50,640 nt of DNA from Candidatus Zhuqueibacterota bacterium (GTDB taxonomy: Bacteria; Zhuqueibacterota; Zhuqueibacteria; Residuimicrobiales; Oceaniaggregativiventaceae), in NCBI GenBank assembly GCA_014728115.1, contig WJME01000039.1, forward strand, positions 1 through 50,640, in the 5' to 3' direction. Positions 24,078 through 43,124 of the stretch are shown here, in pieces. Position 1 is the first letter of the stretch, and each line of letters opens with the position of its first letter. Under the pieces are notes generated by a model. That model was given only the letters and a program-made list of their open reading frames with translations. It did not search any database and was not told where the DNA came from. A program made the position numbers and the translations under genes.

Positions 24078-27000
24078 ATGACAATGGAAAGTTTAGGACG
24101 AGCATTCTTGACGGGGTTGTTGGGTGTTTTATTGTGGAATGGTTTGCTTTTATCTGCTCCTAATCATAGCAGATTATACTATTTCAATCCCCTGACGAAT
24201 GAGGGGGAAGATGAGTTGGCTCAGGTGACCAATTCAAATGGCAAGTTTGTCGAAGGTAGCGGCTGGACTGCTACGGCCTATAACAGTTATTTAAATATAG
24301 AAATGAAAGATTATTTACCTCCCGAAGGTACTCTTGAAGTCAAGGTAAAAAACTTTTCACCGGATCGTATGGAAAAGGATTGGCAACCGGTATCCATATG
24401 GTCGAATAACAATGCCCACTTTTATAATGCTGACCAGACCGCTACTGCTTATGCTTTTTTTAAAACTGAACCCAGGCTTTATGTCGATGGAAAGCTATAT
24501 TGGGTCTTGTGGAGCACCCCTTTTGCATATGCGGAAGGAAAAAAACCCTGGGAAAAATATGCCTACAAGTATTATCCGTTTGCCGAACAAGCTTACTCGG
24601 CCTCAAAGACCTACACATTTAAGATTGTATGGACCCCTGAAAAAAATTATCTGATGATCGATGGGTTTGAGCAAGAAATGCCACATCCGGGTTCGTTTGG
24701 GCCGGTGGAGCTTTTTAGAAATATTTATCTGGGAACAGACATGCGCACGGTTTATCACTCTATAAAAAATGTCTATTTTACCGATCTGAAAATTTATGTC
24801 CCTGAGAGTGATATCAAATTTAAAGAGATCTCTCACAGCAGGGGGCTCGATTCTGTTTCTCTTTTCGGGGGCCAGGGCGGTACTCTTGCTGACATCAATC
24901 TTGATGGTCTCGATGACCTGATTGTTGCCAATTGTGATATCAATAGCGCAAAAATGGATGCCCTGTTCATGCAACAGCAGGACGGTGCTTTTCTGGACGA
25001 GTCCGGCCTGCGAGGCGTTATGACACCAGAGTGCTCGCGCAGCACCGGATATGGCGATTTTGATGGCGATGGGGATATCGACTTGTTTCAGGCAGTCACC
25101 GATGCCCCCAATAAACTTTATCTTAATAACGGTGACGGGACGTTCAGCAATGAATCTTCTGCTCGAGGGATTAATTCTCAATCCAATAACACCACCGATG
25201 TGGTGGTTCTGGATGTCGAAGGTGACGGCGACCTGGATATCATCGCTGTAAATTCCTATGGGGCGCACGAGTTTTACATCAACAATGGCAATGGTTCCTT
25301 TACTCCCGAAGATCGCGGATTATCTGCTGCCGTTGGTTCGGACGAAAACCGGGTAACCGGTATTGTCGCTGGTGACGTCAACGGGGATCACGCTCCTGAC
25401 CTGTTCGTGGCAAGGCGATATATCCCTTGTGTATTGCTCATCAATAACGGTTTCGGACAATTTACCGATCAAGCCAATAGCGCAGGCGTTGCATTCAATA
25501 CAAAAGTCAATACTCCCAGTTTTTTGGATTATGATAATGACGGAGATTTGGATCTGTTTGTCACCCAGGCAGCGGATAATCTCGATCCTGATCCTTATGT
25601 TCTGGTGTTTGAAAATGATGGCAATGGACAATTTATTGATCGTACGACAACCATAGGTATTCAAGGCGATTCCTTTGGATTGTATAGCGGGGATTTTAAC
25701 AATGATACATTTCAGGATCTCTACTTGTTGACGAGCAATCGTAAAAATCCCTTATTTGCTTCAAGAATTTATATGAATACAGGAAGCAAGGGGTTTCGTC
25801 TGGAATCCGGTACCGGCGCTGAAGTCGTTTATGCTGATGGCCGAGGAGGGGTGGTTTCTGATTTTGATCGCGATGGATGGGTCGATATATTGGGTGTCAG
25901 TTATGGAGGCACGCTTGGCACTGCAAATGATGAATATGGTAAAGATCGTTTGTTGAAAAATAGCTCTGCCGACCATATAACCAGCGATAACCATTACCTG
26001 TTGCTGGAGCTCCTGGATAAAGATGAACATCTTGTAACCGCTGGCGCCAAAATTTGGATATATCCTGCTGGGTCTCTCGGTCAATCCGGGAGCTTGATTG
26101 GATATCGCGATTTTCATCGGGGTGAAGGATACAAGAGTCAAAAATCAACCGTCATGCATTTCGGCCTGGGACGCCATTCCAGAGTCGATATTCGTGTCCG
26201 TGACTCCAAAGGTAAAATTTCAGATTATACAAGCATCGATGCCGATCAGCTTTTTCGCGCCGGAACCAAGCTCCCGCCGCCAGTTGCCATAGAACCTGCT
26301 TCTCCATTGACCCTTCAGGGAACTGCCGGTGCAGAATTACCGGATTCGTTGCAAGTCAGAGTCATGGATAGCGATGGATTTCCTGTAAAAGACCAACCAG
26401 TGGTTTTCATGATCACGCAAGGCCAGGGCAGCCTTAACAACAGCGGTCTTTCAGTGACGGTTCCCAGCGACAGATCCGGATTGGCGCGAGCTGCATGGAC
26501 GTTGGGAACGGATCTTTCCCTGCCAAATCTCGTGAGCGCCAGCTCCTCTTTTGAGGGGAGTTCTCTGGAGGGGTCTCCCATCACATTCTCTGCATCGGTT
26601 GCAACCGGAAAAGATTCTCTGCTGACGGTTGTAAGCGGTGACGAACAAATGGGGGCAAGAGGAACCCGGCTACCCGATTCCATCATTGTACGTGTACATG
26701 ACAATTATGGGAATCCTCATCCCGGTGTTAAAGTCAGATTCGCGATTCTTAGCGGTGGTGGAACCATAGAGGGGGCGAGTGAAAAGATTGTTCGCACAAA
26801 TACAGCAGGGCGCGCCGCCGTTAGCTGGACTCTTGGGAATGTCGATGGTATTAATGCGCATTCGCTCAAAGCCGCTCTTGTTTCGACAGCCGCTATTTCA
26901 CATACGTTTTATGCCTCTTCAATATTTGGGCCCCCACATGACCTGATTCGTATCAGCGGTGACGGCCAGGTCGATACAGTCGGGCAAGCTTGTCCTGATT

Positions 27001-30000
27001 CATTTAAAGTGCAATTGGTCGATGATCTGGGAAACCCGTGTATCGGCTTTCCCGTGGAATTCCGGGTTCTCGGTGAATCCGGTTCATTGAGCGGGCAGTC
27101 AATCCTCACAGCAGTGACAAACGAAAAAGGATTCGCTGCTGTCCAATTCACCCTCGGCCCCAAAGCGGCCCAGGGTTATTACCGGGTGCAGGCCAGGTAC
27201 CCTGATCTTGAAGATTTGGTCTTTTTTACAGCCAGTGCCGTGCATGATCGGCCTTTTATACTGGAAAAAATAAGCGGAGATCAGCAAGCCGCTCGTGTGG
27301 ATCACTTGCTTCCGAATCCTGCTATCGTCCGTGTCACAGATCAATACGGCAACATTATTCGCAATCATGCAGTCGTTTTTACCGGTCAAAAAGGTGTCCA
27401 GGTTGACGGCCAGACTATCCGGACGGTTTCAACTGATGAAAACGGACAGGCTTCGGTGAGTATTCGGCTTGGACCGGCCATCGGGGAACAGACAGCAACG
27501 GCAAGTTCGAAATATGGGGCACAGGAATTACAGGGGAGTCCGGCAGTTTTTCAATTTTATGCCAGTTCCAAGCCTGCATTTATCTCTCTGGTCTCAGGAG
27601 AAGATCAAACCGGAATTGTCAATCAGCCGACTGCAAATCCCCTGAGAGTCATGATTGCAGACAGTCTCGGGCTTCCTGTTGCCGTCCATGATGTGAGATT
27701 CATCGTTCGCCGCGGGGCTGGCCATTTTGGCGGAGACAATCAGATCGTTGTTCAAACCAATGAACAGGGAATTGCTTCTGCATTTCCAACTTTGGGCAGT
27801 GATCCCGGTGCCGATAATAATGTCTTTGAAGCTCTTGCCTTTGGAGATTATGGTCAACCATTGGGGGGCGCTCCCATTATATTTACCCTGTCTGCTAAAG
27901 CGAGCATGGCCGAACAAATTTACAATCCTGATACCGAGACTCTTCAGGCTCAGGCCGAAACTTTCCTGTCGACCCCAATACGGGCTCTTGTCGCCGATGC
28001 CAATGGGAATCCTGTCCCCGGCCACAAAGTCACCTTTACGGTCGTGTCGGGAGGAGGTAAATTATCACATGATTTAACACAACGCGTGATTACGAGTACA
28101 GATGCCGATGGATATGCATCCGTAAGGTTCAAGTTGGGACCAGATATCGGTAAAGATGCACATGTGGTACAGGCGTCTGCAAGTGACGGAATTCAAGATC
28201 TGGACGGTTCGCCAGTGGTGTATAAAATAGATGCCCCGTATGGACTTGTGGATCCCGAACAATCCAGTATTCAATCTCCGCAACAGGTGGTGGCAGATGG
28301 ATCCCAGCCCGCTGAAATTTTGATCACACTCAAAGATGGAAAAGGACATCCTGTACCTAATGAGACGGTTACCCTTCTTGCGACAGGCGAGAAAAATTTT
28401 ATCGAACAGCCTAATAGCCCCACAGATTCTAAAGGTCAGACCCTGGCCTTATTGCGATCCTCGAGAGCGGAAAGTAAAGAGCTTTCCGTACACGTCTCTT
28501 CAGTGGATCAATTACTGGCAGCAAAACCATCTGTGCTGTTCGTTGCCGGGGCACCGGCAAAATTGCTCATCGATGCCGGCAATAATCAGGTCGGCACCAT
28601 CAATAATCTTTTAGATGCCTCTCTTCGAGTTCAGCTATTGGACGAGTATGATAATCCGGTGATAAACTATCCAATTGCCTTTACGCCAAACTCCGGGAGT
28701 GGGACCATAAGAAACACTCAGCCGGTGTTCACAGATTCTTCCGGATATGCCCGGGCACAGTGGATATTGGGCCCCACTGTTGGTAAGCAATATGTTACAG
28801 CCTCGGCTCAAAATAGTGTGCTCAGCAAGTTGTTTGAAGCGAATGTAGAGACTCCCGGAGATCGCGAACTCGTTATCATCAAAGGCAATGACCAATACGC
28901 AAAGCCGGGTGAATTGTTTGGTGATTCACTCACCGTAAGAGTTCAGACTGAAAAGGGTCAACCGCTTTCCGGAATCGAGGTAAACTTTACCCTGATTCGG
29001 GGTGATGCCCAAATAATGGTAAACAAGAGCGTTACCGATTTATTCGGTATGGCGCGAACTGCACTACAGGCCGGTACGGCGACAGGATTAATCAGTGTCG
29101 AGGCAAACATTGATGTCCAAACCGTGGTATTTAATTGCGCCGTTGCAGACGCTCCGCCCAGCAAAATGGTCCACCTTTTAGGTGATGGAACGACGCAGAC
29201 CGTGGGCGAGACGGTATATCCGTTGGCCGTCTTGATTACGGATGATCAGAATAAACCGGTCGCTAATGTCCCCATTACATTCGAATCCTTGAGCGAGGGA
29301 TTGACCATACCTGAACCTCAGCCGGTGAGATCGAATGGCAATGGCCAGGCGCTTGTACATGCTCAATTGGGCACAGCGACGGGCCAGTATATTGTCCGGG
29401 CCAGTCATTCACAGCTTCAGGGGTCCCCTGTGGTTTTTGAACTCAATGCAGTTGCTGGAACGCCTGTGGATTTGATAAAACTGAGCGGCGATAACCAGTC
29501 CGGTTTGGGCAATGAGGTTTTATCAGAGCTGATGGTTGTAAAGCTGGTCGACCGATATGGTAACGGCATCGCAGGAGCAGCCATACACTTTGAAATTGCA
29601 TCGGGTCAGGGTGAGATTGTTACCGGAAAAAATGTGACAACCGATTCGACAGGCCAAGCATCGGCTGCCATAAAGCTGGGAATCACAGGCCCTCAGGTTC
29701 TAAGGGCGACAGCACAGGCCTTACCCGCAGAACCGGTCAATTTTACGGCAAACCTGATTTCCAATCATCCTCCTGTGCTGAGTCTTCCTGCGGATACCTC
29801 TATCCTCGTGGGCGAGGTGTTTTTGCTGGATATCAAGGTTTCTGATCCGGAGAACAAGACCGTTACTCTTACCAGCGGCAGCCTACCAGACGGAGCTGAA
29901 CTGGAAACGGTGAGTACTCTTCGATTCATCTGGACACCTACAGATCGCCAACAAGGAACGCATATGATCGAGTTTGTGGCACGGGATCCCAATGGAGGAG

Positions 30001-30890
30001 AAACCAGAAAGAGAATGACTATTAGGGTCATGGAACGTAATCATGCACCTACCATCGAAAACTTTGCTCCAAACGAGAATCCTGTTTATGCAGGTCATTA
30101 CCAGGAATTGAATTTTTCGGTTACCCCTTTTGATGCAGATAATGATGTATTACAATACAGCTGGTTTTTGGATCAATCCCGGCTGAATTCATTTACAAAC
30201 AATTCACTGTCCATGAAAACCAACCCCAGCTTTGCCGAACGATTCACCATTCGGGTAGACGTCAGCGATGGCCGTGAAACCACCAGCCAGGAATGGCAAG
30301 TCGTCTTGGTTTCCACTGCAGTTGAACTATCTCTTTTTGAGGCTGACGTCGAGTCAGGAAAAGTTTTTCTGTCCTGGCAGACCTCCAAACAAGAAAACCA
30401 TCGTGGATTTGAAATTCTCAGATCTAGAAATCAAACAGGGCCATATAAAAAAATATCAGAATATCTTGTCGAAACTGATCCTGACAAGAATTATGAATGG
30501 CTCGATCCAGAGGCTCTGGAGTGTGGTCCCTGGTTTTATAAACTGGCAGCGGTTTCCGGGACAGGTTCAGTTCAGACATTCGGACCCGTGAAAGCCTTTG
30601 TTGCAGTTCCGGATCAACACCGGTTATTGCAAAATTATCCCAACCCGTTCAATCCTGAAACTCGAATACGATTCGAATTATCCAAAGCCACAGATGTTCG
30701 CCTTGCTATATTCAATCTAAAGGGCCAATTGGTAAAATCTCTCATAGAAGGACGTCGCGCTGCAGGCTATCATCAGGTAACTTGGGATGGCAGAACAGAC
30801 AAGGGAGACCATGCTGCTGCCGGGTTGTATTATGCTGTTTTCAAAACAATTGACTTTCAGCAAACTATAAAACTTTTATTACTTAAATAA
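24078..30890 (+). CDS. Giant secreted FG-GAP/CRTAC/Ig-repeat protein A
   Basis: 2270 residues; the ATG at 24078 follows GAGG and starts a signal peptide (about 1-27). Domain order: lectin/LamG-like beta domain (28-245); seven FG-GAP/VCBS blades with calcium loops such as GDFDGDGDIDLF (about 254-610); ASPIC/UnbV module (637-727) with MHFGLGRHSRVDIRV; eleven Ig-like (Big_1/invasin-type) repeats (737-1894), each opening with an S-G-D/N-x-Q-like strand and carrying D-x-x-G-x-A; two cadherin-like domains (1894-2074); an FN3-like domain (2078-2174); and a C-terminal module with NYPNPFNPETRI (from 2182). The last is the type A sorting/FlgD-like signal, implying type IX-like export. Likely a long surface fibre with a propeller tip, for adhesion or ligand binding. 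First of three tandem paralogues, 23 bases before the second. Confidence 0.9.
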   Translation: MTMESLGRAFLTGLLGVLLWNGLLLSAPNHSRLYYFNPLTNEGEDELAQVTNSNGKFVEGSGWTATAYNSYLNIEMKDYLPPEGTLEVKVKNFSPDRMEKDWQPVSIWSNNNAHFYNADQTATAYAFFKTEPRLYVDGKLYWVLWSTPFAYAEGKKPWEKYAYKYYPFAEQAYSASKTYTFKIVWTPEKNYLMIDGFEQEMPHPGSFGPVELFRNIYLGTDMRTVYHSIKNVYFTDLKIYVPESDIKFKEISHSRGLDSVSLFGGQGGTLADINLDGLDDLIVANCDINSAKMDALFMQQQDGAFLDESGLRGVMTPECSRSTGYGDFDGDGDIDLFQAVTDAPNKLYLNNGDGTFSNESSARGINSQSNNTTDVVVLDVEGDGDLDIIAVNSYGAHEFYINNGNGSFTPEDRGLSAAVGSDENRVTGIVAGDVNGDHAPDLFVARRYIPCVLLINNGFGQFTDQANSAGVAFNTKVNTPSFLDYDNDGDLDLFVTQAADNLDPDPYVLVFENDGNGQFIDRTTTIGIQGDSFGLYSGDFNNDTFQDLYLLTSNRKNPLFASRIYMNTGSKGFRLESGTGAEVVYADGRGGVVSDFDRDGWVDILGVSYGGTLGTANDEYGKDRLLKNSSADHITSDNHYLLLELLDKDEHLVTAGAKIWIYPAGSLGQSGSLIGYRDFHRGEGYKSQKSTVMHFGLGRHSRVDIRVRDSKGKISDYTSIDADQLFRAGTKLPPPVAIEPASPLTLQGTAGAELPDSLQVRVMDSDGFPVKDQPVVFMITQGQGSLNNSGLSVTVPSDRSGLARAAWTLGTDLSLPNLVSASSSFEGSSLEGSPITFSASVATGKDSLLTVVSGDEQMGARGTRLPDSIIVRVHDNYGNPHPGVKVRFAILSGGGTIEGASEKIVRTNTAGRAAVSWTLGNVDGINAHSLKAALVSTAAISHTFYASSIFGPPHDLIRISGDGQVDTVGQACPDSFKVQLVDDLGNPCIGFPVEFRVLGESGSLSGQSILTAVTNEKGFAAVQFTLGPKAAQGYYRVQARYPDLEDLVFFTASAVHDRPFILEKISGDQQAARVDHLLPNPAIVRVTDQYGNIIRNHAVVFTGQKGVQVDGQTIRTVSTDENGQASVSIRLGPAIGEQTATASSKYGAQELQGSPAVFQFYASSKPAFISLVSGEDQTGIVNQPTANPLRVMIADSLGLPVAVHDVRFIVRRGAGHFGGDNQIVVQTNEQGIASAFPTLGSDPGADNNVFEALAFGDYGQPLGGAPIIFTLSAKASMAEQIYNPDTETLQAQAETFLSTPIRALVADANGNPVPGHKVTFTVVSGGGKLSHDLTQRVITSTDADGYASVRFKLGPDIGKDAHVVQASASDGIQDLDGSPVVYKIDAPYGLVDPEQSSIQSPQQVVADGSQPAEILITLKDGKGHPVPNETVTLLATGEKNFIEQPNSPTDSKGQTLALLRSSRAESKELSVHVSSVDQLLAAKPSVLFVAGAPAKLLIDAGNNQVGTINNLLDASLRVQLLDEYDNPVINYPIAFTPNSGSGTIRNTQPVFTDSSGYARAQWILGPTVGKQYVTASAQNSVLSKLFEANVETPGDRELVIIKGNDQYAKPGELFGDSLTVRVQTEKGQPLSGIEVNFTLIRGDAQIMVNKSVTDLFGMARTALQAGTATGLISVEANIDVQTVVFNCAVADAPPSKMVHLLGDGTTQTVGETVYPLAVLITDDQNKPVANVPITFESLSEGLTIPEPQPVRSNGNGQALVHAQLGTATGQYIVRASHSQLQGSPVVFELNAVAGTPVDLIKLSGDNQSGLGNEVLSELMVVKLVDRYGNGIAGAAIHFEIASGQGEIVTGKNVTTDSTGQASAAIKLGITGPQVLRATAQALPAEPVNFTANLISNHPPVLSLPADTSILVGEVFLLDIKVSDPENKTVTLTSGSLPDGAELETVSTLRFIWTPTDRQQGTHMIEFVARDPNGGETRKRMTIRVMERNHAPTIENFAPNENPVYAGHYQELNFSVTPFDADNDVLQYSWFLDQSRLNSFTNNSLSMKTNPSFAERFTIRVDVSDGRETTSQEWQVVLVSTAVELSLFEADVESGKVFLSWQTSKQENHRGFEILRSRNQTGPYKKISEYLVETDPDKNYEWLDPEALECGPWFYKLAAVSGTGSVQTFGPVKAFVAVPDQHRLLQNYPNPFNPETRIRFELSKATDVRLAIFNLKGQLVKSLIEGRRAAGYHQVTWDGRTDKGDHAAAGLYYAVFKTIDFQQTIKLLLLK

Positions 30891-30913: not shown

Positions 30914-33900
30914 ATGTTTACGAAAAGACATTTGGTGGGGATACTGGGTCTCTTGATCGCGAGTCTCGTCTTTGCGGAAACCCCTCCCACATATAACCGA
31001 CTGCTGTTTAGCGATGACCTACAGAGCACCGGCAGCAAATCATTTGCAAGTATTATTACCACTGGCGGCTCATTTGTAGAAGATGGGTGGCGTTCGGGCC
31101 ATAATACCGCTCTGCGTATGACATTTAATGACGAACTCCCTGCAGAGGGTTCAGTTACCGTGCGGGTTAGCGGACTCATGCCAACCGTTAGCAATGACTG
31201 GGTGCCGATCTCCCTCTGGTCCAGACGCGGAGGCGGATTTCGCGATGTGGATCCCACTGCTGGTTCTTATACATTTATTAAAACCGAAGAGAATCAGATC
31301 AAAGATGGTAAACAGTATTTTGCGCTCTTTACCTCTGCATATTATGGCGGTTATCCGGATGAAGACAATCGAACAAAGACGTATCAAAACAATCCTCCTG
31401 CATGGCAATGGAATCAGGATTATGAATTCAAGATCGTGTGGAATACGAAAAAATTGTGGTGGCTCCTGAATGATCAGGTCATTGCTGAACATAACTTTTA
31501 TAACCGCAGCAATAAATTCGGACAGGTCGAAGGATTTCGTTACCTCTACCTGGGTATGGATAACGAGTATTCCGGAATGGTGGGGGTGATTTATAAAGAT
31601 GTCAGGATCCATGTGCCTGATTCAGACATTCGATTCAAAAATGTATCATTTTCTTCAGAATCCATGGTAGACAGATTATACGGTGCCCAGTCGGTCACCT
31701 GGTTCGATGCCAATAATGATGGTTATGAAGATCTTTATGTAACCTATTGTGACAAAGTAGACCAGCTCTATATCCAACAAACCGATGGTTCGTTTGTCGA
31801 AGAAGGTGCGGCTCGCGGAATCGCCAATCCCGGATGTTCATTTGCAGGATCTGCAGCAGACTATGACAGCGACGGTGATATGGATCTGTTTATCACAACA
31901 TATGGCGGAGCCAACCGGTTGCTGATCAATGATGGCAATGGCTATTTTGCCGATGAATCGGCCTTACGAGGTATAGAATCTGTTGATCACGGATCTGTGA
32001 ATGCGTTGGCCCTGGATGCAGACAGGGATCAGGACCTCGATATCTTTCTGGTCAATAGCAACAACCCCCACCGTCTTTATACCAATCGCGGTGATGGTAC
32101 GTTCTCTCTTCGGGTCGTCAGCGAAGCGCCCCAGGGCGCCGGTTCCAGGGCCGCTGTGGGGGATATCAATCTCGATGGTATTCAGGATATCTTTTATACC
32201 CGACGGGAAGATCCCTGTGTGTTACTGATCGGAGATGGTAATGGTGGGTTTACGGACATGGCTGCGAGCTATGGTGTCGATTACGATGGCCTGACCTTAA
32301 CGCCTACTTTGGCTGACCTGGATAATGATGCGGATCTGGATTTGATTGTCACTCAGAATAGCACAACAGAAAATCCCGAACCCCGATTGTTGATTTATGA
32401 AAATCTGGGCGGTACCCAGTTTGCCAGTCGTACCGATCAACTCGATATTCATATGCCAGCCTATGGTGTTCTTGTGGGAGATTTTGATAATGACGGATAC
32501 CAGGATATATACGTCCCCACTCGCAATAGCCACGCGAACAAAATGGATGATGCGTCCTCAAGACTTTACAAAAATGAAGGGAACTGGATTTTTACGGAAC
32601 AATATAATACCGGATTCGAACGATTTTTTCCCGATGCCAGAGGGTCTGCAGCTGCTGACTATAATCAGGATGGCAGACTCGATGCCTATATCGCTTGTAA
32701 AGGCGGGATCCTCAAGGGTGAAGAATATGGACATAATGTTCTTTTTCAAAATGTCAGCTCGACGATTCCTTCATATTTCAAGGTCTCTATTTTGGATGAA
32801 AATGGGAATCTCAACGGTATCGGGGCCAGAGTGACCCTTTATCAAACAGGTCACTTGAAGGGAGGTGCAAACTATGTCGTTGGTTACCGGGAGATAGCCC
32901 CCTGGCAAGGTTACCAGAGCCAGAATTCGATGGTTCAACATTTTGGTGTTGGCAATAAAGCTTCTGTCGACCTTTCTGTGCAACTCGCCAATGGCCAGGA
33001 ATTGAATTATTCCAACTTGCAGGTCAATCAACACTTTATGGTTTCGCCTTCACAGACCATTCCGCACCGGCTTAATTTTGTCTCTGGCGATCAGCAGACC
33101 GGACAGGTTGATACTGAATTTAGTGATTCTCTGATCGTCAGAGTGACCGATGAACAAGGCGCACCGGTTGCCGGCCATCCCGTAACGTTTAATGCGATTG
33201 CCGGTGGAGCAACCATCAATAATACAAATCAAAATTCTTTGAATGTGAGCACCGATCAATACGGATTGGCCAGAGCAGCTATACGCGCAGGTACAGTGCC
33301 CGGCTTTGAAAATACCGTGATTCAGATTTCTTCCGCTGTTGATGGAAGCGATCTGATCAACTCCCCGGTGCAGGTTTTATTGTCGGTCGAACCGGGCCCT
33401 CCCCAACAATTGGTCATTGAATCGGGGAATAATCAGACTGGCTCAATCAGTTCTGCTCTGCCTAGCCCTCTTGTCATACGTGTATCCGATTCATTTGATA
33501 ATCCAATTCCCGGTCATTCTGTGCAGTTTCAAGTTGCCACGGGTGGAGGAAAATTCAACGGTGATCAAACCACCATTGATTTGTTCACAAACGAGTTTGG
33601 CCTTGCTCAGGCAAGCTGGATTCTTGGACCCTCGACAGGCGAACAGACGGTTCAGGTTTACTCAAGATACAATGGTGTGCCTCTATCCAACAGCCCTGTA
33701 ACATTCCGTGCAACAGCTACTCAACCTCAGCTTAAACTCGCTCGAGTTTCCGGTCATTTACAGCAGGGTCAAATAAATACCCAGTTGGCCAGCCCTCTGG
33801 TTGTTCGTTTGCTGAATTTCTCGGATCAACCGGTCGCAAATCGCGATGTTTCATTTGAGGTTGTCAGTGGGGGAGGACATTTGCCCGGTAATGTGCAAGT

Positions 33901-36900
33901 ATTAACCAAAAAAACAGGTGCTGATGGATTTGCCAGCGTCACCCCTACTCTGGGTACGGTTACCGGAGACAGCAACAATGTCTTTCAGGCTCAGGTGCCG
34001 GGAGCGATGGGTTCTCCTGCTGTTTTCAAAGCAAGTGCACTACCCGGACCAGCCTTCTCGATCGCTCTGGTAAGCGGACAGGATCAGACCGGTACGGTGG
34101 GTGAACCTCTTGCCCAGCCATTGACAGTCAAGGTTATCGATGGATTTAACAATCCTGTGAGCGGATATAATGTGCTGTTTCGTGTCTCTTCCGGAGATGC
34201 CAATATCGATGGCCTTGCCGAAAAGAGCGTGCCTACCGATGCAAACGGGTTAGCCTCAGCTACGGTGGCGTGCGGAACGTCCAGTGGTGCCATTTCAGTC
34301 CTGGCACGTGCCGATGGCCTGGAAAATTCACCTGTCATATTCAATGCCCAGTCCAAAGCAAAGCAGCCTGCAAAATTGGTCAAGATATCTGGTGACGGCC
34401 AGCGCGGAACAGTGGGTCAACCGCTTGCGAGTCCTTTCAGAGTCAGAGTGACGGATGGTTTCAATAATGGGATTTCCAACCATCCCGTGGTTTTTCAGGT
34501 TATTCAAGGAGGTGGACGTTTGAATGGGTTGGCGCAGGTCACTTTGCAGACCGATGCTGATGGCTTTGCCTCTTCTACGCTGGTTTTGGGGAACACGCAT
34601 TATATCAATGAGGTGATGGTGTCATCCCAATATTTGGGCCAACCCCTGGAGAACAGCCCGCTGACTTTTCGTGCGACAACAGGATCGGATGAACCCGATT
34701 CTCTGCTCTATGTCAGCGGCAACAATCAGGTGGGAAGAATCAATCATATCCTTCCGGAACCGTTTGTCGTCAAGGTGACGGATATGCATGGGATCCCCAT
34801 CGAAGGGCATTCTGTCACTTTTACCGCCATTTCTTCCGGAGCGAATTTTGGGGGCCAAAAGAGTATTACCATTCCCACGGATTCTGACGGACTGGCAAAA
34901 GCACTCGCGACCATTGGCAGCAATATCGGCAATAACAACAATGTGTACGAAGTGCGTGCTTATCAGAATAATGTCCCCCTGAATGGGAATCCGGAATGGC
35001 CCATTCGTTTCTTTGCATCCGGACGGCAGAGCACAGGAACTCAACTCAGGGATCTCACTGCCAACCGGGATAATCTGCACGGTGATGTAGGGTCGTTTTT
35101 GCAAGATACGCTCAAGGTGCAAGTCCTCGATGCAAAAGGAGAGCCAGCCGAAGGACAACCCGTTTTGTTTGAAGTGACCTCTGGAAACAGTCTTTTACAG
35201 GGATCGGTAACGACCCGTAGCGTGGCTTCGGATGAAAACGGTATTGCACAGGTGGTCGTCAAGCTGGGCACAGTGCCGGGTGTCTCTAATGTTCGGGTGA
35301 CTGCGAACAACGGAGTCGCAGAACTGGAAAACTCTCCAATCGATTATACCGTCACCACCTTGGTGGGAGATCCTTCGCTGACCCATTCTACCATAAGTTC
35401 CGATTCATTGGTGACTGCGAACGGTCAACAAGCTGCAAAAGTGAATGTGGTGTTGCGTGACCCATACCGTAATCCTGTTCCAGGCAAAACTGTGATCTTG
35501 TATGCGCAGGGACTGGATGTGACCATCGTACAGCCCACTGATCCGAGTGATGCCGATGGGTCTACACAGGGATCCCTGTATTCCATTCATGCAGGCATAG
35601 CAACCGTGTTTGCAATGGTAGATGGACAAATCATTCCTGATGATTCTGTTCGTATTCGCTTCAAGGCAGATACTCCTTCCCAGGTAACCACTTTTGGCTC
35701 CGGCCAGGTCGCTTTGATGGGCAAAATGGTACCCGATTCTATCGGGGTCATTGTGCGGGATCAATTCGGTAATCCTGTAAAAGATGTGCAAGTCAATTTT
35801 AGAGTAAAATCAGGTGGAGGAAGTTTAACCTCAGGCGGTCCCTTTTATACCGATGCTCAGGGAATCGCCAGTGTAAATTGGACTCTGGGTGTCCCCGGAG
35901 AACAATTTGTTGAAGCGACGGTGCCGGGTGTCATAAACAATTGGCTAAAAATATCTGCAATTGCCATCACACCGGAGCCAGAACAAATTTTAGCGATTTC
36001 CGGTGATAAACAGATTGGCCAGAATCATCAAAAATTACCTCAACCTTTGATCGTACAGGTCAAAGATGCAGAGAATCGGCCCATTCCGGGGATTACTGTG
36101 ACCTTTGATGTAACACAAGGAGATGGACGATTTTTGCCTTCCTCATTTATCAAGACAAACAGTGAGGGAAAAGCCCAAACCGAATTCGAACCGGGAACAA
36201 AAACAGGAATGCATATCATCGAAGCCTCGGTAAATGGGTTGGAATCCAAGGCTCTCTTTAATATTATGGTTGCCACAGGGATAGAAGGCACCATTGAAAA
36301 AATTTCCGGAGATGAGCAAAACTCTCGTCCTGACCGGATTTTGGGTGAACCGCTTGTGGTCCGAATCGTGGATCTGTTCAGCCGTCCATTGGCCAACTCG
36401 TCTGTACTCTTTGAGGTGATTGAAGGGAATGGCTCACTGGTTGAAAGCCAACCCGTCATGACCAATAATAATGGGGTTGCTAATGCGCTGTGGCGTGTGG
36501 GTATACAAGGCAATCAAAGAGTTAAGGTGAGTTCCGATAGTATTTCTGCTTATCCGGTTTATTTCACCGCCACTCTGAGTAATACAGCTCCATTGTTGAC
36601 TGTTCCTGCGGACACGATGATAAAGACCAATGAATTGCTCATCTTTTCAGTGCAAGCCAGTGATCCTGATGGTGATGCTGTGACCTTCGGTGTAAGGAAT
36701 TTGCCTATCGGTGCAAGCTTTGATTCGACTTCTGCAACACCTTCTTTTACCTGGCGTCCCACATCATCACAGACAGGAGCACATACGATTGATTTTGTCG
36801 CTACAGATGCTTATGGTGCGCAGGATCAGAAATCGATCAATATTCTAGTGGATGTCAAGAATCAATTGCCGGTCATAGAGTCTTATTCCCCCATGGATAC

Positions 36901-37708
36901 GAGCATGTCGCTGGAATATGGTTCGTTTATGGCCTTTTCCGTACAAGCGACTGATCCTGATGGAGATGAATTGCAGTACGAGTGGACCATCAATGGAGGA
37001 TTTGCAGGAGCTCAGCCCACCTTTTCCTATTTGTTCAGTCAGGATGCAGGATTGGGTAGCGATGTTTTGGTGCAAGTCCGGATCTCTGATCCAACACATG
37101 TTCTCACTAAACGCTGGCATATAAAACTCTCGACAGCGGTAGAGCTTTCACTTTTTGAAGCCACAGAGCAGAATGGCCTGGTCGAGTTACACTGGCGAAC
37201 AGCATCGGAAACCGGTAATACCGGATTTTATGTGCTACGCTCGGCAAGCCGTCAAGGTCCCTGGCAGATGTTGCAGACAGGATTGATTCCACCCGAAAGC
37301 GACCGCGATTACTCTGTCACCGATGAAAACGTGCAAAGAGGCGAGATCTATTTTTACAAACTGCAAGACCTCGACCGCGATGGCCTTGTGACCGAACATG
37401 GTCCGGTTAAAGTTCAAGTTTCTGTGCCGAGTGAGATAGATTTGGCGCAAAACTATCCCAATCCATTCAATCCTACAACCACCATCTCGTTTGATCTTCC
37501 GGAATCCCAGCAGCTGAGATTAGAAATTATCAATATTACTGGTCAGACCGTTAAAGTCCTTTTGGATGGTCAGATCTCTGCGGGTAGCCATCAAGTCATA
37601 TGGGATGCCACCAATAGGAATGGGATGCCTGTTCCTACAGGGCTCTATTTTTACCGAATGATCACAGAGTCAAAAGTATTTACCAAAAAACTGTTGCTGG
37701 AAAAGTAA
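30914..37708 (+). CDS. Giant secreted FG-GAP/CRTAC/Ig-repeat protein B
   Basis: 2264 residues; the ATG at 30914 follows AGAGGTGA, and a TTG at 30896 is disfavoured. The signal peptide ends near FA-ET (residue 21). Same order as protein A: beta-rich N-terminal domain (22-230), FG-GAP propeller (259-595), ASPIC/UnbV module (618-708) with VQHFGVGNKASVDLSV, eleven Ig-like repeats (717-1891), two cadherin-like domains with DPDGDAVTF and DPDGDELQYEW (1892-2070), an FN3-like segment beginning TAVELSLFEA (from about 2072), and the sorting module NYPNPFNPTTTI (from 2180). It shares signatures with A blade by blade (RR-x-x-PCVLLI in blade 4), so both come from one duplicated ancestor. Followed by a strong terminator; it probably shares a transcript with A. 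Confidence 0.9.
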   Translation: MFTKRHLVGILGLLIASLVFAETPPTYNRLLFSDDLQSTGSKSFASIITTGGSFVEDGWRSGHNTALRMTFNDELPAEGSVTVRVSGLMPTVSNDWVPISLWSRRGGGFRDVDPTAGSYTFIKTEENQIKDGKQYFALFTSAYYGGYPDEDNRTKTYQNNPPAWQWNQDYEFKIVWNTKKLWWLLNDQVIAEHNFYNRSNKFGQVEGFRYLYLGMDNEYSGMVGVIYKDVRIHVPDSDIRFKNVSFSSESMVDRLYGAQSVTWFDANNDGYEDLYVTYCDKVDQLYIQQTDGSFVEEGAARGIANPGCSFAGSAADYDSDGDMDLFITTYGGANRLLINDGNGYFADESALRGIESVDHGSVNALALDADRDQDLDIFLVNSNNPHRLYTNRGDGTFSLRVVSEAPQGAGSRAAVGDINLDGIQDIFYTRREDPCVLLIGDGNGGFTDMAASYGVDYDGLTLTPTLADLDNDADLDLIVTQNSTTENPEPRLLIYENLGGTQFASRTDQLDIHMPAYGVLVGDFDNDGYQDIYVPTRNSHANKMDDASSRLYKNEGNWIFTEQYNTGFERFFPDARGSAAADYNQDGRLDAYIACKGGILKGEEYGHNVLFQNVSSTIPSYFKVSILDENGNLNGIGARVTLYQTGHLKGGANYVVGYREIAPWQGYQSQNSMVQHFGVGNKASVDLSVQLANGQELNYSNLQVNQHFMVSPSQTIPHRLNFVSGDQQTGQVDTEFSDSLIVRVTDEQGAPVAGHPVTFNAIAGGATINNTNQNSLNVSTDQYGLARAAIRAGTVPGFENTVIQISSAVDGSDLINSPVQVLLSVEPGPPQQLVIESGNNQTGSISSALPSPLVIRVSDSFDNPIPGHSVQFQVATGGGKFNGDQTTIDLFTNEFGLAQASWILGPSTGEQTVQVYSRYNGVPLSNSPVTFRATATQPQLKLARVSGHLQQGQINTQLASPLVVRLLNFSDQPVANRDVSFEVVSGGGHLPGNVQVLTKKTGADGFASVTPTLGTVTGDSNNVFQAQVPGAMGSPAVFKASALPGPAFSIALVSGQDQTGTVGEPLAQPLTVKVIDGFNNPVSGYNVLFRVSSGDANIDGLAEKSVPTDANGLASATVACGTSSGAISVLARADGLENSPVIFNAQSKAKQPAKLVKISGDGQRGTVGQPLASPFRVRVTDGFNNGISNHPVVFQVIQGGGRLNGLAQVTLQTDADGFASSTLVLGNTHYINEVMVSSQYLGQPLENSPLTFRATTGSDEPDSLLYVSGNNQVGRINHILPEPFVVKVTDMHGIPIEGHSVTFTAISSGANFGGQKSITIPTDSDGLAKALATIGSNIGNNNNVYEVRAYQNNVPLNGNPEWPIRFFASGRQSTGTQLRDLTANRDNLHGDVGSFLQDTLKVQVLDAKGEPAEGQPVLFEVTSGNSLLQGSVTTRSVASDENGIAQVVVKLGTVPGVSNVRVTANNGVAELENSPIDYTVTTLVGDPSLTHSTISSDSLVTANGQQAAKVNVVLRDPYRNPVPGKTVILYAQGLDVTIVQPTDPSDADGSTQGSLYSIHAGIATVFAMVDGQIIPDDSVRIRFKADTPSQVTTFGSGQVALMGKMVPDSIGVIVRDQFGNPVKDVQVNFRVKSGGGSLTSGGPFYTDAQGIASVNWTLGVPGEQFVEATVPGVINNWLKISAIAITPEPEQILAISGDKQIGQNHQKLPQPLIVQVKDAENRPIPGITVTFDVTQGDGRFLPSSFIKTNSEGKAQTEFEPGTKTGMHIIEASVNGLESKALFNIMVATGIEGTIEKISGDEQNSRPDRILGEPLVVRIVDLFSRPLANSSVLFEVIEGNGSLVESQPVMTNNNGVANALWRVGIQGNQRVKVSSDSISAYPVYFTATLSNTAPLLTVPADTMIKTNELLIFSVQASDPDGDAVTFGVRNLPIGASFDSTSATPSFTWRPTSSQTGAHTIDFVATDAYGAQDQKSINILVDVKNQLPVIESYSPMDTSMSLEYGSFMAFSVQATDPDGDELQYEWTINGGFAGAQPTFSYLFSQDAGLGSDVLVQVRISDPTHVLTKRWHIKLSTAVELSLFEATEQNGLVELHWRTASETGNTGFYVLRSASRQGPWQMLQTGLIPPESDRDYSVTDENVQRGEIYFYKLQDLDRDGLVTEHGPVKVQVSVPSEIDLAQNYPNPFNPTTTISFDLPESQQLRLEIINITGQTVKVLLDGQISAGSHQVIWDATNRNGMPVPTGLYFYRMITESKVFTKKLLLEK

Positions 37709-37711
37709 GTT

Positions 37712-37746
37712 AAAAAAAGAGAGAGCGTCTGCTCTCTCTTTTTTTT
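37712..37746 (+). terminator. Strong intrinsic terminator after giant gene B
   Basis: GAGAGAGC (37719-37726) and GCTCTCTC (37731-37738) form a perfect 8-bp stem with loop GTCT. Seven A before and eight T after extend the pairing to about 15 bp and supply the U-tract. It begins three bases after the stop codon and could act in both directions because of the A-run. Confidence 0.9.
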
Positions 37747-37832: not shown

Positions 37833-37860
37833 TTGCTAATGAGGTATTTCGGTCTAAAAT
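37833..37860 (+). promoter_or_regulatory. Candidate promoter for giant gene C
   Basis: TTGCTA (37833-37838) and TAAAAT (37855-37860) are 16 bases apart, upstream of the ATG at 37875. If used, the leader would be only about 8 bases, so either the messenger is nearly leaderless or the real promoter is further up. The preceding terminator makes a promoter somewhere in 37747-37874 likely. Confidence 0.35.
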
Positions 37861-37874
37861 AGGGAAAACACTGG

Positions 37875-40800
37875 ATGCAGATTGATTCCATACGATCAAT
37901 TTGTTTGATTGGGTTCAGCGTGCTGTTTGGTGCCCATTTTACTCAAGCTCAAGTGCACTTTGATGAGGTCAGCAATTTGTACAAAGTGAGAGGATTTGAA
38001 ATCTCTCCCTCCAAATATGCATTGGGCCATGGGATTGCCGTTTCAGACATTAATGGCGATCGGTTCCCTGAACTCTATATCTCGAATGCAGTTCGGGAGG
38101 CGGATCAATTGCCGGAATTGCTCTATATGAATCATGGTAATCCTCCTTTTCAAAACGAGGCTGCAGCCAGAGGTGTGGCTGACCCATTTGGAGAGACCGG
38201 TACGCATGGAGTCATTTTTGTCGATATCGATAATGATGGCGATCTAGATATTTTTAACGGTTCTACAGACGAACGCAATCATCTGTATATCAATCGCGGT
38301 AACGGGACCTTTTACGATGGGTCTCATGCTGCCGGCATCTCTGTTGAAAAGTTGGGTACGCGTGGAGTGGTGGCATTTGATGCAAATGGGGATGGTTATA
38401 TGGATCTTTTTGCAGCCAATTGGTACAATCCCCGTAAGAAGAATCGGGTAGAATCCAATGAGTTTTATCTCAATCGTGGAAATGGAACTTTTCAGCGCAC
38501 AGATGCGGGCCTGACGAGAATCAATTCTCTGGACACCGGTGTGCAAGGCGTAACTGCAGCCGACATCGATGAGGATGGGGATGTCGATCTCATTCTCAGC
38601 CGGCGTGTCTATCCGGATCCTACATTCAACCAGGTCATGCTCAATGATGGGACCGGTCATTTTACGGAAAAATCCCAACAACTGGGCCTTCGTGTGGCCG
38701 GCAATGATTGTAATGGCACGACCCTGGCAGATCTCGATAACGATGGAGATCTCGACATTTTGTTTACCAACCATCCCAAGAGTTATTCCAAGCCCGACTA
38801 TCTTATTGTTTTCGAAAATAAACTGAACGAGTCTGGAAGATTCGAGGATATCTCTCAAAAGGTTAATATCAGAGGATATGGGTTTACCGTCCTGTGCATC
38901 GATGTTGATAATGATACCTATCAGGATATATTTTTAACCAACACCAAAGAAAAGTCATCTCTTTATTTGAACAAAGGGGATTTTGTTTTCGAAAAACAAG
39001 AGAATACCGGTGCTGAGCACTCTTTGTTCGATCCTCGTGCCGTTGTTAAATCCGATTTCGATCGTGATGGAGATCTGGATATTTATCTTACAGATGCCAA
39101 CAAAGATTCCAGCTATCAATATTATAACCGGTTGCTGCAAAATAAAACCCGCAACGATCATCATTGGCTCAAAATCGATGCCTGTGGTCCCAGAGGTGAT
39201 CGGGGAGGATTTGGCAGTAAAGTATGGATTTATGCAGCCGGCCACGTCGATGAATCTGAATTCTTGTTGGGATACCAACAGATCCAGAACGCCTATGGCT
39301 ATCTCGCCCAGGATGATCCTGTTCTCCATTTTGGTCTGGGCCATCATAGCCATTGCGATGTAAAGTTTCGTATGACTGATGGAATGGAGTTTTTGGCGCG
39401 GAATGTTCCCTCTAACCAACTTTTGCATTTTGCAAATCCTGATCTCATTGAAATCATTTCCGGAAATCGACAAAACGCACAGGTGGGTGTTCCCATGGAC
39501 CACCCTCTGGAGGTCCAGGTCACTGGCTCGGAAGGGAATGCCCTTGCTGGCGTTCCGGTTCATTTCGAATTTACACAGGGTGGGGGGGGCTTTGGTTCGG
39601 ACAACCATGAGACGATTACTCTATATACGGATTTGCAGGGATTCGCCCGGACTGCTGTAACGCTTGACGATATTTCCGGGGAGCATCATATCACTGCTGC
39701 GGTTGGAAACCGAGATCTCTTTGTCACCTTTATCGCAAATCTGAATTTGGATAAAGGCTATGTTTTGACCCGACCGGACAGCCGCCTCTTGTCTGGCACG
39801 GCTGGCAGCTGGCTGAGCGATTCCATTCGGGTCAAGCTCGTTGATACAAATGGTCAACCGGTAGCCGGGTATCCCATAGATTTTATCATTCAGTCCGGAG
39901 GGGGGATACTTGCCCCCGGTATGAGCGATCAGGTGGAGGTTCTTACGGATAACCAGGGCATCGCTGCCATTGCATGGCAATTGGGGCCTTTTACTTTGAC
40001 CGTGCAAAAATTGAGCGTGAACCTGGAAACCGTTGATATCCCTGTGGCGAATGCTCCCCTTGAAATAACAGCACAAGCAGAACCATTAGCCGTTCATAAA
40101 CTCTTATGGATGGGGGATTCCTTGCGTTCGGGCCAGGCAGGTCAATTGCTGGAAGATCCGTTACGTCTTGTCGCCTTGGATCGTTATGATAACCCTGTTC
40201 CCGGCGTTAAAGTCGTATTCAATCTTGATGATGGAAACGGGACCATAGGGGGAGCGACATCACTCATGGTGGCGTCAGCATCAAACGGAATCGTATCCGT
40301 TCCATGGGCTCTAGGAGCGATTGCCGGAAAATGGAATCGAGTACATGTCTCTGTCTATCAACATCCACTGATTTATACGCAAGGCCTGGCGTTTGCCGCC
40401 AGTCCTCGAGCTGTCTCAATGAACGGTCTGTCTCTCGACCCTGAATACAACCTAAATCCCGGAGAGACCATTGGCCCCTTGACCGTTCAGATTTTGGATA
40501 ATCAAAAAGAGCCCGTCCCGAATTATTTGGTCACCTTTTCGTTGCCTGATAGCAAAGGTCGGGTGAATGACCAGACTGACAGTGTGCAAGTCGTGAGCGA
40601 TAAAGATGGAATTGCCAGATGTGATTGGCAACCGGATGCTGACGGCGCTCAGACACAAATCTTACGCATTACAGCTTGTCGACTTTTGAATTCACCGATT
40701 ATGGTACGTGCCAATATGGTGTTTACCATTCCACATGAAATGACAGTCGTTCAGGCTAATAATCTCATAGCCGGACCCGAGTCTAGATGTCCTGAACCCA

Positions 40801-43124
40801 TCATTATTGCTGTTGCTGACTCTCTGGGAAGGGCTATTGATTCGCATCCCGTCGAATTTCGAGTCGTCGATGGTGACGCAACCTTTGAGGGTGAAAAACG
40901 TAAAGTCGTATTGACCGACAGTCTTGGCAGAGCGACCATCCATGTCGATATGGGCACAAAAGCCGGTCCTGTTTCCATCCAGGCGTTGTCGTTCAATAAA
41001 GAGATTCCTTTGGTCAATTCACCGTTGACCCTATCTGCTCGTTTGATCCCCGGAGAGACCGAGCCCAAAAATTGCCTTCTTTTGATTTCCGATCCAGTGG
41101 TTGCGAATAAAAGTGAACAAAACCAGGTCACCCTTGTTCTCAGAGATGCCTGGAATAATCCTGTTGGGCAAAAGACTGTCTCGCTTTTGAATTCAGATCC
41201 CTCTCTTGCTTTTCCCTCCAAGGTTCAGACCGATTCATCGGGACAAGCCAATATCCAGTTTTCTACGACCGTGGCAAAAACCTATCGTATTCATATCAAA
41301 CTCGGATCTCTTGAGATTTGTGATTTTGCATTGACCTTTTTACCCGGACCTGCAGCAGAATTGCGCAAAATCAGTGGGGATGGACAGCAGGGTCTGGTCA
41401 ACCGCACGCTGGACAAACTCATAATGGTTGCGGTGGTTGATTCTTTTTCGAATGGGGTGCCGGATGTTGTTCTGACCCCTTTTGTCACAATGCCGTCAGG
41501 CAAATCCGTGCCCCTGCAAACCAGTGTTACGGATTCTACAGGCATTGCCAGATGGGCCTGGCCCCTGGGGCCGGAATTTGGCGAGTATGTGCTGACGGTG
41601 AGCTTGAGTCCTGAACAAATAGTGCAATTCCATACCCGGGCTCTGACAGGGGTACCGGTGGCTTTGGAATCAGTATCTGCGCCTGACCCTGTCGGAAAGA
41701 GAGCGAGCGAATTATCTGAGCCTATTGGGGTGCGATTGATCGATGAGCACGGGAATGCTCTTGCCGGATTTGAGATCTTATTCGAGATTGTTTCGGGGAA
41801 TGCCGTTCTATTGGATTCTCATTCTCAGGTAAGCGATTCGGCAGGTGTCGCCAGAATGAGAATATTTATAAATGAAAATGCAGAACATCCTATTATGGTT
41901 TCTGCATCATTGCATGACACAGAGATCGAGTTGTTATATCAAATCCGGATTTTTGACGATCGCGTCAGGAAAATGATCATGATCAGCGGGAATCACCAGA
42001 TCGGCGCACCAGACTCGGTTTTACCAGAGGCATTGGTCGTGCAGGTTCTTGATGCGGATGATGATCCAGCTCCTGGAAAAAGGGTTTACTTTGAGTGCCT
42101 CGAGGGTGAAGGAAACATCGACCCACTGATCGTTGTCTCGGATACATTGGGTTTTGCCAGAGCTTATTGGCAGTTGGGTCCCGCAGATTCTTTACAAATC
42201 GCAAGGGCCTGGACAGATGAACAGGAAATTGAAGTAAGGTTTGAAGCATTTTTAGAGATCAACCACGTTCCCTATGTTACCAATACCACAGATACCACCA
42301 TCTTGCATGATAGAGATTTTCTGTGGAATTTGCGTGTGATTGATCCTGATTCTCACTCGGTCTCTGTTGTATCTGCAGAGTTACCTTCGGGAATGAGATT
42401 GGTGACAGAGTCGGAAAATCATTTTTATTTGCACTGGCCGGCAGATCAAGTAAGGGTGGGCGAGTTTGTGTTGATGTTGACTCTTGATGATCATCATGGT
42501 GCAAAATGTAATGTGAATTTGCATCTTTATGTTTTAAAGAATGACCATGCGCCCAAACTCTTGCAGGCAGTCCCAGAAGACTCTGTAATATATGGTCTAT
42601 ATGGAGATTTAATCACTTTTAATATTGAGGCCTTTGATCCGGATGGCGATTCCTTGAGTTATATCTGGATGATCGATGAACAGATTGTTTCCTCAGAGAC
42701 ACAGGCTGTTCTGGACTTGTCGATCAGTAGTGAATTGCCTCCTCAGTTTTTCGTCAAGGGGATTGTATCGGCTGATGGAAAATCTATAGAAAAAATCTGG
42801 TTAGTTCATACCCATCCGACACGAGTGAACGAAAAAAGTGCAATCCATGAATACGCGCTCTATCAAAATTATCCCAATCCGTTTAATCCGACCACTGTGA
42901 TAAGATTTGTGATTCCCAACGCCGGTTATGTGAGTCTTGATATTTATAATTCTACTGGCCAAAGGGTACGTTCATTGGTACATCGAAAATTGAGTGGTGG
43001 AGAGCATTCTTTTGTCTGGGACAGTCGCGATGATCAGGGGATACTTTTGCCCACCGGAGTGTATAGTTATCAACTGTGTACTCAAAGTTTTAAAGAAAGC
43101 AAAATGCTGATCTATATAAAATAA
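37875..43124 (+). CDS. Giant secreted FG-GAP/CRTAC/Ig-repeat protein C (shorter paralogue)
   Basis: 1749 residues with a signal peptide (cleavage near FTQA-QVHF, residue 25). It lacks the lectin-like N-terminal domain of A and B and begins directly with the FG-GAP propeller (45-412; loops such as VDIDNDGDLDIF), then the ASPIC/UnbV module (428-518) with LHFGLGHHSHCDVKF, nine Ig-like repeats (521-1457), two cadherin-like domains (1461-1648; DPDGDSLSYIW), and the sorting module NYPNPFNPTTVI (from about 1664). The FN3-like domain of A and B is also missing. The ribosome-binding site is weak. The next gene starts nine bases after the stop, so this protein is likely co-transcribed with the UbiA-type enzyme and those after it. 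Confidence 0.9.
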   Translation: MQIDSIRSICLIGFSVLFGAHFTQAQVHFDEVSNLYKVRGFEISPSKYALGHGIAVSDINGDRFPELYISNAVREADQLPELLYMNHGNPPFQNEAAARGVADPFGETGTHGVIFVDIDNDGDLDIFNGSTDERNHLYINRGNGTFYDGSHAAGISVEKLGTRGVVAFDANGDGYMDLFAANWYNPRKKNRVESNEFYLNRGNGTFQRTDAGLTRINSLDTGVQGVTAADIDEDGDVDLILSRRVYPDPTFNQVMLNDGTGHFTEKSQQLGLRVAGNDCNGTTLADLDNDGDLDILFTNHPKSYSKPDYLIVFENKLNESGRFEDISQKVNIRGYGFTVLCIDVDNDTYQDIFLTNTKEKSSLYLNKGDFVFEKQENTGAEHSLFDPRAVVKSDFDRDGDLDIYLTDANKDSSYQYYNRLLQNKTRNDHHWLKIDACGPRGDRGGFGSKVWIYAAGHVDESEFLLGYQQIQNAYGYLAQDDPVLHFGLGHHSHCDVKFRMTDGMEFLARNVPSNQLLHFANPDLIEIISGNRQNAQVGVPMDHPLEVQVTGSEGNALAGVPVHFEFTQGGGGFGSDNHETITLYTDLQGFARTAVTLDDISGEHHITAAVGNRDLFVTFIANLNLDKGYVLTRPDSRLLSGTAGSWLSDSIRVKLVDTNGQPVAGYPIDFIIQSGGGILAPGMSDQVEVLTDNQGIAAIAWQLGPFTLTVQKLSVNLETVDIPVANAPLEITAQAEPLAVHKLLWMGDSLRSGQAGQLLEDPLRLVALDRYDNPVPGVKVVFNLDDGNGTIGGATSLMVASASNGIVSVPWALGAIAGKWNRVHVSVYQHPLIYTQGLAFAASPRAVSMNGLSLDPEYNLNPGETIGPLTVQILDNQKEPVPNYLVTFSLPDSKGRVNDQTDSVQVVSDKDGIARCDWQPDADGAQTQILRITACRLLNSPIMVRANMVFTIPHEMTVVQANNLIAGPESRCPEPIIIAVADSLGRAIDSHPVEFRVVDGDATFEGEKRKVVLTDSLGRATIHVDMGTKAGPVSIQALSFNKEIPLVNSPLTLSARLIPGETEPKNCLLLISDPVVANKSEQNQVTLVLRDAWNNPVGQKTVSLLNSDPSLAFPSKVQTDSSGQANIQFSTTVAKTYRIHIKLGSLEICDFALTFLPGPAAELRKISGDGQQGLVNRTLDKLIMVAVVDSFSNGVPDVVLTPFVTMPSGKSVPLQTSVTDSTGIARWAWPLGPEFGEYVLTVSLSPEQIVQFHTRALTGVPVALESVSAPDPVGKRASELSEPIGVRLIDEHGNALAGFEILFEIVSGNAVLLDSHSQVSDSAGVARMRIFINENAEHPIMVSASLHDTEIELLYQIRIFDDRVRKMIMISGNHQIGAPDSVLPEALVVQVLDADDDPAPGKRVYFECLEGEGNIDPLIVVSDTLGFARAYWQLGPADSLQIARAWTDEQEIEVRFEAFLEINHVPYVTNTTDTTILHDRDFLWNLRVIDPDSHSVSVVSAELPSGMRLVTESENHFYLHWPADQVRVGEFVLMLTLDDHHGAKCNVNLHLYVLKNDHAPKLLQAVPEDSVIYGLYGDLITFNIEAFDPDGDSLSYIWMIDEQIVSSETQAVLDLSISSELPPQFFVKGIVSADGKSIEKIWLVHTHPTRVNEKSAIHEYALYQNYPNPFNPTTVIRFVIPNAGYVSLDIYNSTGQRVRSLVHRKLSGGEHSFVWDSRDDQGILLPTGVYSYQLCTQSFKESKMLIYIK

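Follow-up and report, generated by a model that had tools for sequence, protein, structure and literature searches.

The window analysed here, 50,640 nucleotides of DNA from Candidatus Zhuqueibacterota bacterium, is a complete contig (C298) of an assembly of 6.96 Mb in 338 contigs. It carries three consecutive giant genes, A, B and C, whose products combine an N-terminal head containing a CRTAC1 unit (a propeller joined to an UnbV/ASPIC module), a long array of immunoglobulin-like (Ig-like) units and a type IX sorting tail. The open reading frames and their lengths agree with an initial annotation of this DNA, and the features located along them are compiled below.

24078..30890 (+), gene A, 2270 amino acids, start ATG at 24078 (open reading frame, Pfam, NCBIfam, Ig profile)
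24165..24812 (+), A, N-terminal lectin-like domain (profile built in this analysis)
24816..26291 (+), A, CRTAC1 unit, a propeller with seven DxDxD-type blade motifs plus UnbV/ASPIC (Pfam, motif count)
26316..29750 (+), A, 11 Ig-like units (Ig-repeat profile)
28251-28541 (+), A, D3 variant, 7th unit (Ig-repeat profile)
29757..30341 (+), A, two cadherin-like domains (Pfam and profile)
30342..30605 (+), A, FnIII-like domain (profile)
30606..30887 (+), A, type IX type A sorting tail, NYPNPFNP, FlgD_ig/Por_Secre_tail (Pfam, NCBIfam)
30914..37708 (+), gene B, 2264 amino acids, start ATG at 30914 (open reading frame, Pfam, NCBIfam, Ig profile)
30992..31627 (+), B, N-terminal lectin-like domain (profile)
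33080..36571 (+), B, 11 Ig-like units (Ig-repeat profile, stalk model)
35378-35662 (+), B, D3 variant, 8th unit (Ig-repeat profile)
36566..37159 (+), B, two cadherin-like domains (Pfam, profile)
37160..37423 (+), B, FnIII-like domain (profile)
37424..37705 (+), B, type IX sorting tail (NCBIfam, profile)
37712-37745 (+), terminator-like hairpin and T run between B and C (consensus scan only)
37875..43124 (+), gene C, 1749 amino acids (open reading frame, Pfam, NCBIfam, Ig profile)
38025..39431 (+), C, CRTAC1 unit, propeller plus UnbV/ASPIC (Pfam, profile)
39453..42236 (+), C, 9 Ig-like units (Ig-repeat profile)
41067-41291 (+), C, D3 variant, 6th unit, weak at 25 bits (profile)
42258..42830 (+), C, two cadherin-like domains, 34 and 50 bits (profile)
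42849..43121 (+), C, type IX sorting tail (NCBIfam, profile)

A signal peptide, read by eye in all three proteins, is followed in A by the lectin-like domain, the CRTAC1 unit, 11 Ig-like units, two cadherin-like domains, an FnIII-like domain and the sorting tail. The domain order of B is identical, except that the single unit resembling the invasin D3 variant is the 8th instead of the 7th; C consists of a CRTAC1 unit without the lectin-like domain, nine Ig-like units, of which the 6th is the D3 match, two cadherin-like domains and the tail. The pair of cadherin-like domains attributed to each protein at the outset could be located in all of them. Since the stop codon of A lies 23 bases before the start of B, and the terminator-like hairpin separates B from C (33 such sites were found by the scan, against 18.8 expected), A and B are likely to form one transcript, with C transcribed separately.

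Head, rod and tail

Both modules first read by eye in the heads were recovered by profile searches, the FG-GAP propeller (Pfam FG-GAP_3 at 6.6e-31, 2.4e-35 and 3.8e-38 in A, B and C) as well as UnbV_ASPIC (32.6, 40.4 and 31.7 bits, cut-off 23.4). The seven-bladed propeller stands immediately before UnbV/ASPIC and the fold, predicted with confidence, is like that of 9etn, the murine structure of cartilage acidic protein 1 (CRTAC1), which places the heads in the CRTAC1 family. A CRTAC module inserted between propeller and stalk, as proposed in the initial annotation, is not what is found: propeller and UnbV/ASPIC together make up a single CRTAC1 unit, in the usual order. The difference from CRTAC1 and the bacterial family of that name lies in the setting, in that the unit is located close to one end of a protein of 1749 to 2270 amino acids, with an Ig rod and a type IX tail attached and, in A and B, the lectin-like domain ahead of it. 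The DxDxD-type motifs of the blades, seven in A, seven in B and six in C, fit metal binding by the propeller. CRTAC1-type proteins are said to reach from bacteria to humans (so the title of a 2010 paper), and to our knowledge no settled ligand exists for them. The listed matches to the head of B include FG-GAP proteins whose records name the bdelloid rotifer Rotaria as the source (P0085, P0088).

The lectin-like domain of ≈ 215 residues is present in A and B and missing from C. Taken alone, that of A or B gave no Pfam match up to E 5, nor any sequence match among solved structures at the same limit, and a search with it retrieved three proteins, B itself among them. When seven members were compared with Pfam, weak matches to GH16 (2 of 7), the trans-sialidase C-terminal domain, galectin and MalF_P2 (1 of 7 each) appeared. 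VIA-align matches of the head model run mainly over residues 215-598, so that the fold of the N-terminal domain is barely covered, and long Foldseek matches of poor root-mean-square deviation to multidomain proteins containing jelly rolls were not used as proof of it.

The proposed counts of 11, 11 and 9 Ig-like repeats were reproduced exactly with a profile iterated from one unit of B (domain E up to 0.01), and Pfam Big_1 matches at 2e-83, 2.8e-80 and 1.1e-51. The units of one protein are on average only 31, 33 and 27% identical in A, B and C (maximum 45%), which argues that the array is old and not recently expanded. A model of 894 residues of the B stalk is all-beta, with a mean pLDDT (predicted local distance difference test) of 88 and a pTM (predicted template modelling score) of 0.37, at which the arrangement of the domains is not fixed; among solved structures it is closest to invasin, FdeC, InvD, InvE and pieces of SraP and intimin. 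The central repeats are thereby modelled as separate Ig-like domains, the point on which the initial annotation had staked its proposal, and the long fibre proposed there gains support from the same model and matches, with the rod shape itself remaining a prediction.

Invasin, intimin and FdeC, the inverse autotransporters, share this Big_1 or invasin-type Ig rod but have the opposite polarity, with an N-terminal beta-barrel and a C-terminal distal head; in the present proteins the head is N-terminal and the type IX tail C-terminal, no outer-membrane barrel family occurs among the Pfam matches of A, B and C, and the N-terminus is occupied by the lectin-like domain and CRTAC1 unit (A, B) or by the CRTAC1 unit (C). 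In fibrillar adhesins, stalk domains, Big_1 named among them, project a distal domain (available sections of PMC8286594), a design with which the 11, 11 and 9 tandem units accord. A propeller, FG-GAP and UnbV go unmentioned in the main text of the fibrillar-adhesin surveys PMC8286594 and PMC9210967, as far as its available sections go; as a fibrillar-adhesin tip, the CRTAC1 head would be of a new kind. Periscope Proteins likewise present a binding domain at the N-terminus of a rod made of folded domains in tandem, and their repeats are described, in the sections available, as highly similar and variable in number (PMC8201768). The B-type rods differ on both counts, with 11 units in all 17 complete cases described below and a mean identity of 33% between the units of B.

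As to export, the NYPNPFNP-type ends noticed at the outset score 27.9, 35.0 and 25.8 bits in A, B and C against TIGR04183 (cut-off 23). The same genome encodes SprA (857 bits) and, in two neighbouring genes (L010/L011, G000:C253:94179-101634), PorU-like sortases of 881 and 851 bits, that is, a duplicated type IX sortase, besides at least 150 sorting-tail matches (150 of 246 candidates scored). Because the tails exceed the cut-off and SprA and two PorU homologues are encoded in the genome, type IX export of A, B and C is likely, and the same machinery speaks for the predicted surface location. Substrates of type IX systems may be anchored or released. A likeness exists to SprB of Flavobacterium, a giant surface adhesin of many repeats exported by the type IX system; SprB is not known to have a CRTAC1 head or to be Big_1-based.

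Distribution and the two rod lineages

A profile of the head was run against 60 genomes (E up to 1e-30). Of the 22 genomes from the same order or a closer group, the source genome included, 19 gave matches extending from the lectin-like domain through UnbV; none of the 38 other genomes of the class did, their matches beginning in the propeller. Incomplete heads in the same order are those of G006 and G020 (pieces only) and G009 (propeller part only). Among the best 120 of 624 protein homologues (the 7990 candidates with most words in common were scored, and B itself is one of the 120), 13 combine lectin-like domain, CRTAC1 unit, Ig rod and tail, and 13 more have the same layout without the lectin-like domain. 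The stalked architecture, which the initial annotation had not seen described elsewhere, is consequently not private to this window, and in the open-licence literature no paper was seen to describe it. Three homologues come with a source name, candidate division KSB1, as 'Ig-like domain-containing protein' (P0009, P0015, P0126); KSB1 is the phylum proposed as Zhuqueibacterota (available sections of PMC11683472). The source genome itself also encodes a lectin-CRTAC1 protein of 1850 amino acids, a GDSL-CRTAC1 protein of 2801 amino acids with 13 Ig units (L007:4230-12635) and a GDSL protein of 2687 amino acids with 16 Ig units and no CRTAC1 unit (L008:3762-11825). Among the 20 further regions examined, L044 and L052 gave no row.

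The most regular element is the B-type rod. All 17 B-type proteins with a complete rod, 11 of them from fetched genomes and six from databases, have 11 units, and the stretch from UnbV to tail measures 1450 amino acids (standard deviation 7) while the heads are 30-79% identical. B-type frames cut by the fetched or contig end (G001, G011, G015, G021) were left out of this count, and P0004 (B itself) as well as P0009 and P0012 (taken as the G014 and G004 loci, likewise with 11 units) were not counted again. The D3 variant is the 8th unit in the 13 B-type frames that were indexed and in the six database proteins, and 2992 comparisons of B-type units gave 2657 matches between units of equal index. 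Another 13 lectin-CRTAC1 proteins, drawn from several paralogue classes, served as a control and have between 6 and 9 units over 820 to 1217 amino acids; one member of this set, P0023, is counted in class E and has an A-type rod.

Among 15 fetched B-type genes, B is immediately preceded by an A-type gene on its own strand in 10 of the 14 decidable genomes (G000-G004, G007, G010, G011, G013, G015); in G003 the upstream gene is a C-terminal fragment of a rod gene, itself not placed in a tree, and in G014 the contig ends upstream of B. The A-slot rods form one clade against the B rods (support 100/100, and 100/99 in the tail-side part), and both lineages span several families. Within the A-type rods, and likewise within the B-type rods, most repeats pair with the repeat of the same index, which does not hold between the types; the D3 variant takes the 7th position in G014 and in the eight A-type frames that were indexed. 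Nine of the 12 A-type rods have 11 units.

The tops of A-type rods are of four kinds. In the window's family (G000-G003) the rod bears a lectin-CRTAC1 head resembling that of B, and G010 and G014 also have a lectin-CRTAC1 head, which belongs to another class; in G004, G011 and G015 the head is C-like and lacks the lectin-like domain; in G007 and G013 there is none, a signal-peptide-like start (by eye) leading directly into seven Ig units. The headless genes, from two different families, are found at L028:5325-8645 and L029:4079-7504. A single clade for all eight A-slot heads was rejected when C-like heads were in the set, as was one for the four lectin-bearing A-slot heads; the test with the four C-like heads and without the f2 A-slot heads gave a bare rejection (p 0.044) and was not used. 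The initial annotation had read A and B as a whole-gene duplication. What stands of this is the common repeat count and the extras at both ends, the lectin-like domain and the FnIII-like domain, both missing in C, but the D3 unit is one position out of step. With the rods in separate clades, repeat indexing that fails between the types and tops of four kinds, simple duplication of the whole gene was rejected.

Neighbouring genes

Further features of the window are the following.

11395-13320 (-), DUF5060/collagen-binding-like gene
18716-20770 (-), heparinase II/III-like gene
43134..44009 (+), UbiA-family gene, over the decaprenyl-phosphate phosphoribosyltransferase cut-off (270 against 234 bits)
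45254..47482 (+), TPR lipoprotein gene, frame from 44984, lipoprotein-like start at 45254 by eye
47486-49420 (+), DUF4838 protein, lipoprotein-like start

A beta-helix gene is also encoded, and a frame of 616 amino acids (4498-6348, minus strand) matches nothing in Pfam (E up to 0.001) or in NCBIfam (E up to 0.0001). Decaprenyl-phosphate phosphoribosyltransferase is an enzyme of arabinan precursor synthesis. A UbiA-family gene near B or its C-like followers occurs in 7 of 14 other genomes (G002, G004, G007, G010, G011, G014, G017), and the TPR gene also in 7 of 14, counts to which G005, G015, G016 and G021 contribute little or no downstream DNA. The TPR gene stays near B in G001 and G003 as well, where no UbiA gene was seen, and its product could be a partner of the fibres.

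A candidate pair of adhesive fibres

The reading preferred here, to which we assign a probability of about 0.55, is that A and B are CRTAC1-headed rods of 11 units with type IX tails, predicted to be exported to the surface with the head outwards, and likely a co-encoded pair of adhesive fibres. The signal peptides would direct both proteins to the periplasm, and the type IX system, with SprA and PorU, would recognise the C-terminal tail and keep that end at the outer membrane. The cadherin-like domains and the 11 invasin-like Ig units, whose folds are predicted, may together form a rod of tens of nm, carrying at its tip the lectin-like domain and CRTAC1 unit, which would probably bind a glycan or glycoprotein with the help of bound metal ions. 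On the evidence of sequence, B is the constant member, and the upstream A keeps its rod lineage while its head is exchanged or lost; the rod of A might brace B or add a second specificity. C would be a shorter protein of the same kind, likely transcribed alone. The sequences themselves, the confidently predicted fold of the head, the constancy of the rod, the exchange of heads in the A slot and the presence of type IX machinery are shown; export of these proteins, ligand binding, metal dependence, rod shape and the partnership of A and B are what we infer, and adhesion is the most likely use of the B fibre with its CRTAC1-lectin tip.

Several observations weigh against the fibre pair. The rod shape is assumed from the Ig arrays, as the low pTM of the stalk model recalls. 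Three of the 12 A-type rods break the length match, the two headless ones with seven units and P0023 with nine, and another two A rods, which lack the FnIII domain, are ≈ 90 amino acids shorter; the strict form of a length-matched A-B pair is weakened by the headless genes and P0023. When the domain E limit is tightened from the lax 0.01 to 0.001, the B-type proteins of G007 and G016 show 10 units, with rods still of 1447 and 1448 amino acids. With the 19 eleven-unit rows only, a single clade of A-slot heads is not rejected (p 0.057), so that the exchange of heads is surer for the slot as a whole than is the origin of the head carried by A of this window. Near-constancy is also not special to B, for in the closest E-class clade six of seven rows measure 1118-1126 amino acids and the seventh 1015; the rows G001_E39 and P0017 are nearly identical. 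The proposal that fixed length belongs to A and B alone was therefore rejected; each class tends to keep its own rod length, B being the one sampled most widely.

The strongest competitor, still unlikely in our judgement, is that the three proteins are fibrillar adhesins independent of one another, encoded side by side by chance, with no partnership of A and B and with their equal length inherited or coincidental. It would account for the four B-type genes that have no A-type gene in the upstream DNA examined (4.2 kb in G005, 9.9 in G016, 7.2 in G017, 1.6 in G021), for C and further copies in the same array (four such genes in a row in G002), for A rods of seven or nine units and for the constant length of most close E-class rods; the same-strand pairing in 10 of 14 genomes and the retention of the A rod lineage even after loss of the head argue against it. 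Somewhat more doubtful, in the opposite direction, is a new surface organelle, a two-gene fibre in which the unvarying 11-domain rod of B with its CRTAC1-lectin head would stand beside the usually length-matched rod of A, the latter a docking stalk for a replaceable head cassette (a lectin-propeller of either of two types, a propeller alone, or no head), the whole being an invasin-like rod reversed and delivered by the type IX system.

That the heads are scaffolds for polymer breakdown, holding polysaccharide for esterases and glycosidases with adhesion secondary, is less probable again. The same combination of CRTAC1 unit and rod occurs with GDSL esterase-like domains fused to its N-terminus, and the window holds sugar-related genes (heparinase II/III-like, DUF5060/collagen-binding, DUF4838, beta-helix), but no catalytic domain occurs among the Pfam and NCBIfam matches of A, B and C, and of the heparinase-like, DUF5060 and DUF4838 genes only DUF4838 recurs, at four loci in the flanks examined, the upstream ones being short. 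Shedding after export into an extracellular matrix, which the release of some type IX substrates would allow, is improbable, as a rod of constant length with its head at one end would best suit anchoring at the other.

For the fibre pair, three consequences may be named. Because evolution places the CRTAC1 unit at rod tips and swaps the heads in the manner of cassettes, a binding role is indicated for this unit. Rods of constant length built from diverged domains are the reverse of the well-studied adhesins of variable length, and bear on the question of what sets the length of a fibre. Finally, the proteins would offer a concrete candidate for surface attachment in the uncultured phylum KSB1/Zhuqueibacterota.
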